Positions 56,976 to 60,836 of a stretch of 64,000 bases of DNA are shown here, in pieces. Source of the DNA: Tepidamorphus gemmatus (lineage in GTDB: Bacteria > Pseudomonadota > Alphaproteobacteria > Rhizobiales > Tepidamorphaceae); NCBI RefSeq assembly GCF_004346195.1, contig NZ_SMAK01000003.1, positions 62,001 to 126,000 on the forward strand, read 5' to 3'. The notes under the pieces were generated by a model that saw only the letters and a list, made by a program, of their open reading frames with translations, was not told where the DNA came from and made no database searches. The position numbers were made by a program, and so were the translations under genes. Numbering within the stretch: the first letter of the stretch is position 1; each line of letters begins with the position of its first letter.

Positions 56976-57809
56976 CTATCCGAAGGTCCAGTTGTAGGGG
57001 GCTGCGACGTTGCCGATCCAGGTGACGGTCCCGAACACGGCCGCGGCGGGGGCGAGCACAGAGTTGATCTCGGCCGGCGTCCTGTCGGAGGCGAGCAACG
57101 CCCCGGCCGGGCCGTAGCCGAGCAGAACGCCGAAGCTGTCCAGCACCGAGGCCGAGGTCTGCGCCGTCAGCGACACGGCGTAGACGCAGGCTTCGGTCGG
57201 GGCGTCGACGTCGGCCGGGCCGAGGATCAGGGCAGCGGGGAGGTCAAGACCGTCCATTGGCGGCAGGAAGGGCAGCGCGGCGATCACTTTCGCGCCGTGG
57301 CGGCCGGCCTCGGGCGCCGGCTCGCCGGTCAGGTCGATCTCCGCCCACCATCGCTCCTCGAGCGGCCCGTCGAGCACGACGACAGCCAGGTCAGTACCGG
57401 TGCGCGCCACCGTCGCCACGGCCTCGGCATCGGAGTCCGTGGCGACCAGCGGTGCGGAAAACCCGAAGGCATAGCGCAGCAGGTCGCGCACCCGCGGTTC
57501 CTCCGCTCGCGACGACAGCACGCGATACGGGGCCTGCAGCTGGGTGAAGGTGCCGATGATCTCGCGCCACAGATGCTCGACGATCGACAGCGGCAGCGGT
57601 CCGGCATGGCGATCCTGCAGCGCGCGCATCATCGCGGCCTCGCGTCCCGGCCGGAATGCCGCGCCGCGCTCGCCGAGCTTCTTGGCGGCGATGAGCTGTT
57701 CGATGACCTCGGCGCGGCGCATCAGCAGGCCGTGGATCTCGCTGTCGACGGCGTCGATCTGGCGACGCAGCGCGTCGAGGTCGGGAGTGGCGGGGGAAGA
57801 GGTGTTCAT
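56976..57809 (-). CDS. Chorismate mutase with a C-terminal PDT-like domain
   Basis: A 277-residue protein. Residues 8-95 are an AroQ-type chorismate mutase ([40 protein letters not shown]), which converts chorismate to prephenate. Residues 95-277 form a second alpha/beta part ([37 protein letters not shown]) that recalls the prephenate-dehydratase fold but lacks its TRF and ESRP catalytic and regulatory motifs, so activity is doubtful. The ATG at 57809 follows a GGGGGAAGAGG-like stretch on the coding side in reverse (CTTCC), with moderate support. It heads the leftward aromatic operon. Confidence 0.9.
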
Positions 57810-57941
57810 GCAGGTCCGCTGGCGAACAAGGACACGACGGAGCGGAATCCCACCCCGCGCCGCGGCCGGAGTCTTACGGGAGCGACTTGCCGAACGCAAA
57901 GAGAATCATCGACATGGCGCAGCGTTACGGCGTCCCCGCGC

Positions 57942-58175
57942 TCAGAATCGGACCGTCGCCGTGACGAACGACGTCGTGCCCTCGAATCGGTGGCGGGCAT
58001 CCTGCTCCCAGTACATGCGCGCATTCGGCACGACCGCGCGGCCGGCCACCTCGGTCGCGAAGGCGAGTGCCGGACCGAGCGTCGCGCCGGGGCCGCTGTC
58101 GCCGGTGAGCTGGCGATAGGCATAGCCCGCAAGCCCGATCGACCAGCCATTGGCGAAGTGGTGGTCGGCAAGCCG
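57942..58175 (-). pseudogene. C-terminal remnant of an outer-membrane SphA/MetA-type channel protein
   Basis: On the leftward strand 77 codons from just after a stop at 58176-58178 to TGA at 57942-57944 read LADHHFANGWSIGLAGYAYR, QLTGDSGPGATLGPALAF and end in TSFVTATVRF, a C-terminus ending in Phe as in outer-membrane beta barrels. This matches the last strands of the SphA / phenol-MetA degradation (pfam13557-like) channel family. No start codon exists and the first three quarters of the gene are missing. It abuts the related rightward remnant exactly at about 58172. Confidence 0.75.
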
Positions 58176-58893
58176 TCAATTCGCTCGGCAACATCGCCGC
58201 CTTCGCCGGTCCGACGCTACCCGACGGCACCCGGATCGCCCGCGGCACGTCGTATCGCGTCGCGGGCGAGGAGTTCTCCTGCGGCGATCCGATGGTGCAG
58301 GCGATGATCGGCTGGATCCACGGTGCCTGGCACTGGAACCTGATCGCCCAGCTCTACCTGCCGTTCGGCGCCTATATCAACGGCAACCTGGTCGATATCG
58401 GCATCGATCACTGGTCGAGCGATCTCAGCGTTGCGGCGACCTACCTTGATCAGCACAACAGGCTTGAGATCTCGTTCTCGCCCGGCCTCACCTTCAACTG
58501 GGAGTCACCTTCAACTGGGAGAACGAGAGCACGCGGTACAGGACCGGGACCGAGTTCCACGGCGAGTTCGCCGTGCTCAAGCACTTCAATGAGACATGGG
58601 CGCTCGGGATCGCCGGCTACTACTATCACCAGATCACCGGTGACAGTGGCCCCGGCGCCAGGATCGGATTGTTCGAGGGCCGCGCCGTCGGGCTCGGACC
58701 GATCCTCACCCGCAACGTCACGGTTGACGGCAAGCAGGTGACGACCTCGACGCGCTGGCTGCACGGGTATTACGCGGTGAACCGAACCAGGGGCGACAGC
58801 GTGCTCCTCAGTATCGGGATCCCGATCCACGTCGGCGCCCCGCAGTTCCCGCGGACATGCGGGCACGCCGCGGGCGGCTCAGGAAGCCATTGA
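58172..58893 (+). pseudogene. Frameshifted SphA/MetA-type outer-membrane channel gene
   Basis: Rightward coding sequence without a start begins near 58172 (VNSLGNIAAFAGPTLPDGTR, MVQAMIGWIHGAWHW, YLPFGAYINGNLVDIGIDHW) and is interrupted at 58505 by a 17-bp tandem duplication that shifts the frame. It resumes in another frame (AVLKHFNETWALGIAGYYYH, QITGDSGPGARIGLFEGRAV, GLGP) up to TGA at 58891-58893. It belongs to the same outer-membrane family as the leftward remnant. Both the missing N-terminus with signal peptide and the frameshift make it non-functional. Confidence 0.8.
58488..58521 (+). repeat. Perfect 17-bp tandem duplication
   Basis: TCACCTTCAACTGGGAG is present at 58488-58504 and again at 58505-58521 without any mismatch. 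Removing one copy restores a continuous reading frame through the outer-membrane protein remnant (FNWENESTRYRTGTEFHGEF). The lack of divergence suggests that the duplication is recent. Confidence 0.93.
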
Positions 58894-58959
58894 CAGGACC
58901 AAAGCCGGACACCTACTAGGGGCGATCGGACCGGGAAGGATGAGCCCGGCGGGGCGAGA

Positions 58960-58981
58960 CGTCCCCTGCCGGCCGGGGACG
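58960..58981 (+). promoter_or_regulatory. Hairpin in the metX leader
   Basis: CGTCCCC (58960-58966) and GGGGACG (58975-58981) pair perfectly around TGCCGGCC, 32 bases before the metX start codon. The sequence does not match the SAM-II or other SAM riboswitch cores known from alphaproteobacterial met genes. It may be a simple terminator of the pseudogene or a leader structure. Confidence 0.35.
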
Positions 58982-59013
58982 CCGGCGACCGGTGATCCAG
59001 CAGGGAGAGGCGC

Positions 59014-60192
59014 GTGACCAGCCGCACCGCGGCCTATCGGCAGGTCGATAAGCCGGACAGCGAGGTTGTGCGCTTCGGCGTGGACGATCCCTTGCGGCTC
59101 GACTGCGGGGTCGACCTGGCGCCCCTCACGGTCGCCTATCAGACCTATGGGACGCTCAATGCTGAGCGCAGCAACGCGATCCTCGCCTGCCACGCGTTGA
59201 CCGGCGACCAGCATGTCGCCAACCGGCATCCGGTCACCGGCAAGCCCGGATGGTGGGATCTGATGGTCGGACCTGGCAAGCCGATCGACACCAACCGCTT
59301 TTTCGTCATCTGCGCCAACGTGCTCGGCTCCTGCATGGGCACCACCGGCCCGAGCAGCATCGACCCCGCCACCGGTCAGGCCTATGGCCTGAACTTTCCG
59401 GTGGTGACCATCCGTGACATGGTGCGCGCCCAGGCCAAGCTGATCGACCATCTCGGCATCGAAACGCTGTTCTGCGTCGCCGGCGGTTCGATGGGCGGCA
59501 TGCAGGTGCTGCAGTGGGCGGCGAGCTATCCGGACCGGGTGTTCTCGGCGATCCCGATCGCCACCGCGGCGCGCCATTCCTCGCAGAACATCGCCTTTCA
59601 CGAGGTAGGCCGCCAAGCGGTGATGGCCGATCCGGACTGGCGTGGCGGCCGCTATCTCATCGAGGGCACCAGACCGAGCAAGGGGCTTGCCGTCGCGCGC
59701 ATGGCCGCCCACATCACCTATCTGTCCGAGGAGGCGCTGCACCGCAAGTTCGGGCGCAATCTGCAGGATCGCGAGACGGTCACCTTCGGCTTCGATGCCG
59801 ATTTCCAGATCGAAAGCTACCTGCGCCACCAGGGCATGACCTTCGTCGATCGGTTCGACGCCAACTCCTACCTCTATCTGACGCGCGCCATGGACTACTT
59901 CGATCTGGCAGCCGATTACGGCGGTACGCTCGCCAATGCGTTCCGCGACAGCCGGACCCGGTTCTGCGTCGTCTCGTTCACCTCCGACTGGCTGTTTCCG
60001 ACCGAGGGCAATCGTCAGGTCGTGCATGCGCTGAACGCGGCGGGCGCCCGCGTCTCCTTCGTCGAGATCGAGACCGACCGCGGCCATGACGCCTTCCTGC
60101 TCGACGAACCGGAGATGTTCGCCGCGATCCGCGGGTTCCTGGAGTCCGCGGCCCGCGCGCGCGGTCTGGCCGCGCCGGTCGCCGTGCCATGA
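59014..60192 (+). CDS. metX: Homoserine O-acetyltransferase
   Basis: A 392-residue alpha/beta-hydrolase-fold acyltransferase that acetylates homoserine at the start of methionine synthesis. [30 protein letters not shown], the nucleophile elbow [15 protein letters not shown], the acid in [19 protein letters not shown] and the histidine in [10 protein letters not shown] are all present. The start is the GTG at 59014, with GGGAGAGG 4-11 bases upstream. Acetyl versus succinyl specificity is inferred from family only. The stop overlaps metW by 4 bp. Confidence 0.95.
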
Positions 60193-60836
60193 CCGAGCAT
60201 ACCGATCCGGGCCAGCAGCAGACCAAGCGTGTCGACCTGCTGCTCGTCGCCGAGATGATCGCGCCGGGATCGCGTGTCCTCGACGTCGGCTGCGGCGACG
60301 GCACGCTATTGCGCATCCTCGAGAACCGCTACGGAATCGACGGCCGCGGCATCGAGCTCAGCCAGCGCGGCGTCAACGAATGTGTCGCCAAGGGCCTTGC
60401 GGTCGTCCAGGGCGATGCCGATCACGACCTCGATGACTATCCCGACAACGGGTTCGACTACGTCATCCTGAGCCAGACCGTGCAGGCGACCCGCAACCCC
60501 CGTGTGGTGCTCGGGCATCTTCTGCGCATCGGGCGGCGGGCAATCGTCTCGTTCCCGAACTTCGGTCACTGGCGGATGCGCTGGCAGCTCCTGTTCGAGG
60601 GGCGGATGCCCGTCACCGAGCACCTGCCGATGTCGTGGTACGACACACCCAACATCCACTTCTGCACGATCCGTGATTTCGTCAGTCTCGTGCACGATCT
60701 CGAAGCACGGATCGAGCGCACGATCGCCCTCGACTCGCGCGGGCGACGGCTGCCCGACAACGCGTCGCTGTCGCGCCTGAATATCTTCGGCGAACAGGCG
60801 ATCTTCCTGCTGCGGCGCGGCGGCGAAGCGGACTGA
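60189..60836 (+). CDS. metW: Methionine biosynthesis protein MetW
   Basis: A 215-residue class I SAM-binding protein. [20 protein letters not shown] then [13 protein letters not shown] holds the SAM motif, and [20 protein letters not shown] and [20 protein letters not shown] are signature parts of MetW. MetW works together with MetX in organisms with this gene pair; it has been proposed to activate or complete the MetX acyltransferase. The ATG at 60189 overlaps metX by 4 bp, consistent with a fixed two-gene operon. Confidence 0.95.

Follow-up and report, generated by a model that had tools for sequence, protein, structure and literature searches.

Remnants of two PF13557 outer-membrane protein genes, head to head between chorismate mutase and metX in Tepidamorphus gemmatus

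Within the stretch of 64,000 nucleotides of Tepidamorphus gemmatus DNA analysed here (the window), the pair of gene pieces that meet head to head between the genes for chorismate mutase and metX is confirmed as real remnants of outer-membrane protein genes, located as listed in Table 1 and matching their family far above chance. As a pseudogene pair it is ordinary. It resembles known bacterial pseudogenes derived from acquired genes in the truncation and frameshift of genes that are unfound in close relatives; its head-to-head layout within a putative divergent promoter region differs from them as a detail of place. The origin of the pair is best explained, with a probability of about 0.78, by the gain of two diverged PF13557 channel genes in the promoter region, a single deletion that removed the 5' ends of both, and subsequent decay.

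Family assignment and lesions of the remnants

According to a Pfam scan, the left remnant (57945-58175 on the minus strand) corresponds to the final third of a protein of the PF13557 family (Phenol_MetA_deg), with an E-value of 3.5e-8, 34.2 bits and a match to profile positions 164-237 of 242, and the right remnant (58172-58890 on the plus strand) to the last three quarters of another such protein, its two parts together spanning profile positions 64-240 of 242 and part 2 (58507-58890) scoring 72.3 bits (E 8.3e-20). With the curated Pfam cut-off at 22 bits, all three pieces belong to PF13557 by profile score, which agrees with the sequence-only reading of this DNA, where they had been taken for two fragments of one outer-membrane family. 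That reading also had both 5' ends lost, and the matches indeed begin at profile position 164 on the left and 64 on the right; by profile coverage, neither remnant is a full-length PF13557 open frame with an N-terminal region. The fragments had further been described as lying head to head without a spacer and as sharing one family motif, and both points hold, as the two open frames share the 4 bases 58172-58175 and the motifs QLTGDSGPGA and QITGDSGPGA are present, one in each remnant. The best identity of the pieces to an intact relative is up to 52% over 110 columns. An NCBIfam scan returned no family for the three pieces, nor for two intact relatives, a PADLOC scan of the three pieces returned none, and no solved structure was found by sequence for an intact relative at E <= 1.

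Table 1. Coordinates of the features in the window (positions counted from its first letter)
Feature	Position	Strand	Remarks
Presumed chorismate mutase promoter, left of the putative insertion	57871-57900	-	-10 TAAGAC, 18 nt, -35 TTTGCG
CATCGACA, taken as what is left of the ancestral metX -35 box	57907-57914	+	possible left target-site copy
Stretch bounded by 11-of-12 inverted repeat	57928-58870		arms 57928-57939 and 58859-58870
Left remnant, PF13557 outer-membrane protein gene	57942-58175	-	77 codons and stop; C-terminal part; lacks N-terminal part and about 10 internal residues
Head-to-head junction	58172-58180		frames overlap; family alignment of both remnants starts near here
Right remnant, part 1	58172-58504	+	PF13557 E 2.4e-16, 61 bits; profile 64-146
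Exact 17-bp tandem duplication, TCACCTTCAACTGGGAG twice	58488-58521	+	shifts frame of right remnant
Right remnant, part 2, shifted frame, with stop	58507-58893	+	PF13557 8.3e-20; profile 142-240; family alignment
Presumed present metX promoter	58888-58918	+	CATTGACA, 17 nt, CTACTA; from position and resemblance to relatives

The rightward piece had been read as a single fragment, whereas it is made up of two frames (58172-58504 and 58507-58890), the homology switching from one to the other at the 17-bp tandem duplication. Alignment to intact family members, which had been proposed as a check, bore out the truncations and brought to light a gap overlooked before, i.e., the absence from the left remnant of about 10 residues (LGxFEGRVxx) after the GDSGPGA motif. 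In the alignment the right frame extends about 19 residues beyond the end point of many family members; this tail need not be a lesion, because some intact members also have tails. The stop codon of the right frame (58891-58893) falls inside a TTGACA at 58890-58895.

Judged by sequence, neither remnant is read as a working channel gene. In contrast to intact PF13557 proteins, the pieces lack the N-terminal region and the frame is broken, and in annotation the frames at 58573-58893 (106 aa) and 57942-58175 (77 codons) would count as pseudogene pieces, not as genes. The third-position G + C content of the three pieces (0.857, 0.874 and 0.883) lies in the range of the neighbouring genes (0.832-0.888), which suggests that the decay is young or that it is hidden by mutation bias.

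The family label used in the sequence-only reading was that of the COG4313 channels (SphA, Pput2725), which we take to be the same proteins as PF13557 and from which the pieces differ in lacking the N-terminus. In the available part of the paper describing them, SphA and Pput2725 are assigned to COG4313, Pput2725 is a 12-stranded barrel for which the uptake of hydrophobic molecules is suggested, and the term PF13557 does not occur (PMC4493636).

The locus between chorismate mutase and metX

The gap between chorismate mutase and metX amounts to 1204 bp here, in contrast to 215-371 bp in six of the seven loci of the family, where it was taken between alignment ends; the seventh locus (L038) covers 238 bp upstream of metX. 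A wider set of 87 metX loci comprised the seven family loci and the best 80 of genome_contigs, Lutibaculum being present in both sets. A chorismate mutase match was seen at 43 of them (36 less than 500 bp from metX; median 273 bp), in keeping with the earlier remark that the genes on either side of the site are often neighbours, and 44 of the 87 show no chorismate mutase, some having little upstream sequence (6 bases in L146). The flanking order chorismate mutase-metX-metW is the same as in relatives. A look at the syntenic locus in relatives had also been suggested, and it yielded the short gaps given above and no PF13557 piece, a tblastn search with the three pieces at E <= 1e-3 having matched none of the 87 loci.

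When both flanks were joined in trial and compared with five relatives, the best score (118.6) was reached with about 980 bp omitted, which leaves 224 bp between the genes; joining at the two CATYGACA copies instead would give 231 bp. With the left flank shuffled, the best join scored 50.0 on average and 73.1 at most, the corresponding values for the right flank (n = 20) being 108.0 and 117.2, and continuing the left flank into the insert gave 106.2. By the shuffle controls, homology gives good support to the left edge and weak support to the right one; the candidate bounds of the insert run from about 57915-57931 to 58887-58911. Since the gap of 1204 bp compares with 215-371 bp in relatives, and falls to 224 bp without the approximately 980 bp, the remnants appear to lie in an insertion within a conserved, presumably divergent promoter region of chorismate mutase and metX.

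Wide gaps, of 573-2498 bp, are also found in seven loci of other genera (L095, L074, L079, L091, L104, L117 and L126), which suggests that the gap has widened on more than one occasion; none of the three pieces has a match in these seven.

The inverted repeat that bounds the stretch possibly represents the worn ends of a mobile element; it was equalled in one of 200 base shuffles and, having been picked after it was seen, is only a lead. The direct repeat formed by CATCGACA and CATTGACA (7 in 8) is one of six such flank matches, some of them overlapping, and at least six flank matches of 7 in 8 arose in 32 of 100 shuffles, so that as a direct repeat the pair is not above chance. No transposase was detected in a Pfam scan of the three pieces and nine further or longer frames (66-214 aa), which gave PF13557 and two weak matches below the cut-off (VMAP-M7, E 0.03; Pept_S41_N_bact, E 0.046).

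Origin of the pair

At E <= 0.001, PF13557 was found in 19 of the 61 genomes searched, the own genome included, and in none of the seven others that belong to the family. Right part 2 had matches at E <= 1e-10 in 53 of 397 genomes of the order, again with the own genome, the best four others standing at 49-53% identity, and the left piece at E <= 1e-5 in 4 of 385 genomes of the class, counted in the same way. A search of genome_contigs for a close relative of right part 2 gave 146 stretches that fit a pattern, none of which was confirmed. Among plasmids, a DNA search gave five records with pieces spanning 3-10% of the query, and a protein search 76 records for right part 2 and eight for the left piece, all below 60% identity; PF13557 proteins are labelled 'transporter' in many plasmid records. 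In twelve enlarged regions from relatives, between 4.2 and 12 kb in length (three under 10 kb), neither a head-to-head PF13557 pair nor a second PF13557 gene was seen, and the original layout is therefore reconstructed from the remnants alone. One literature search on pseudogenes of the PF13557 family listed no paper that appeared to concern this locus.

With respect to the kinship of the two remnants, left and right paired in 0 of 200 bootstrap trees of 38 C-terminal sequences, a result that is weakened by the left piece being short and on a long branch, which makes its exact place uncertain. Over the 71 nt of motif DNA, the identity between left and right is 79%, and that of either to other members 76% at best (39 loci of other members, some duplicates). 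From these comparisons the remnants do not look like recent paralogues. The alignment behind the tree left out L012-L055, most of L045-L055 entering it as the enlarged L154-L165, and 11 of its rows were dropped from the tree by name, namely six own-genome rows from L166 and L170, right part 1, one half of a split gene in L058, and three copies already present (L061, L070 and L163).

The PF13557-like gene of L058 (L058:895-1842) is divided by a single stop codon into two open frames that share one reading frame, and is possibly another broken copy.

In the preferred scenario, a segment of about 980 bp would have been gained in this lineage within the promoter region shared by chorismate mutase (leftward) and metX (rightward), bringing in two diverged PF13557 channel genes that pointed apart. 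One deletion would then have taken the centre, so that both genes lost promoter, start and signal peptide and the left one the greater part of its length as well; later the 17-bp duplication, probably by slippage, would have put the right remnant out of frame, and about 30 bp would have been deleted from the left one; the neighbouring genes seem to retain a promoter each, one per side. We infer the original head-to-head layout, a gain rather than repeated loss, the order of the events and the promoters; gain rather than loss in relatives fits because most syntenic loci have a short gap.

The sequence-only reading had instead let two tandem or inverted paralogues recombine at an inversion-like junction. 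Homologous recombination of such paralogues is in line with the family motif in both fragments and with the 71-nt arms at 58075-58145 and 58597-58667, which are 79% complementary; however, the junction (about 58175) lies outside these arms, their motifs are hardly more alike than either is to other members, and the fragments do not group in the trees (a result weakened by the short, long-branched left one), so that we regard this origin as improbable. A simple inversion that cut a gene at one of its breakpoints would set two fragments back to back and thus yield the head-to-head orientation, but no counterpart half of such a gene turned up in the genome search, though a much diverged half could escape, and the order chorismate mutase-metX-metW has remained that of the relatives, which makes an inversion very unlikely. 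The genome search concerned comprised the assembly of 3.775 Mb in 32 contigs, rated 99.96% complete; at E <= 0.001 PF13557 occurs there in the three stretches only, and when 210 residues of the N-terminal region of an intact relative served as query, the right remnant was the sole hit at E <= 10, with no N-terminal half at another place. The missing 5' parts therefore seem to be gone and not moved, unless they have diverged beyond these searches.

That the junction or the 17-bp repeat might be an assembly error is suggested by the draft state of the genome, but hardly to be expected, as the site is far inside a contig of 440,649 bp, the repeat listing has no long exact repeat common to both fragments, and several separate lesions occur within one short stretch. 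Nor does the genome hold a second DNA copy of the locus: with 40 of 134 first-look candidates scored, the 31 matches include the locus itself and two in which the arms align with one another (79% over 71 nt), and among the remaining 28 the lowest E-value is 0.02. A collapsed repeat is unlikely, given arms of only 79% identity, the absence of a second copy in this search and the position deep inside the contig. A non-homologous deletion fits better than paralogue recombination or a simple inversion.

The promoter region and the control of metX

The chorismate mutase promoter presumed on the left is based on homology of the flank to a conserved block in relatives; the window retains the left part of the block at 57871-57914, in worn form. 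On the right, the flank homology behind the presumed metX promoter is not clearly above shuffles. A consensus scan of 57700-59200 gave no promoters and no terminators, which counts against a strong consensus promoter in this interval. The conserved block would, by its sequence, comprise back-to-back promoters with adjacent -35 boxes.

The box TCAAAGAAAACRTTGAC, or a close form of it, stands ahead of metX in 14 of 43 gaps, with Lutibaculum counted twice (L033-L036, L039/L102 from the same genome, L105, L106, L110, L118, L125, L130, L136 and L152). It is conserved in most rows, including its A-rich middle, and ten of these 14 gaps also have a hexamer, TCATA or TTGATA, about 18 nt left of the box; in the window, no such box was found with up to 3 mismatches. 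The box may be a regulator site overlapping the -35 boxes.

As to its owner, the available part of PMC4239095 describes SahR sites as 20-bp palindromes and gives for SamR a site of the form ATC-10 nt-GAT, in common with gamma-proteobacterial SahR. On comparison with these two, the box, which has ATC-12 nt-GAC, was assigned to no known methionine regulator, SahR staying a candidate through its alpha-proteobacterial motif. A riboswitch ahead of metX was rejected, Rfam giving none at E <= 1 in 57000-60500 of the window, and in the metX loci of seven relatives none was seen at the Rfam gathering score. A tRNA scan of the window gave three tRNAs, none near the locus.

It is conceivable, if on balance unlikely, that the insertion split the shared promoter region with its back-to-back -35 boxes in two, removed TCAAAGAAAACRTTGAC from metX and thereby rewired how methionine synthesis is controlled in this lineage, the inserted genes meanwhile decaying to spacer. 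If this reading of the promoters were true, the site would show how an insertion in a divergent promoter region uncouples two biosynthetic genes.
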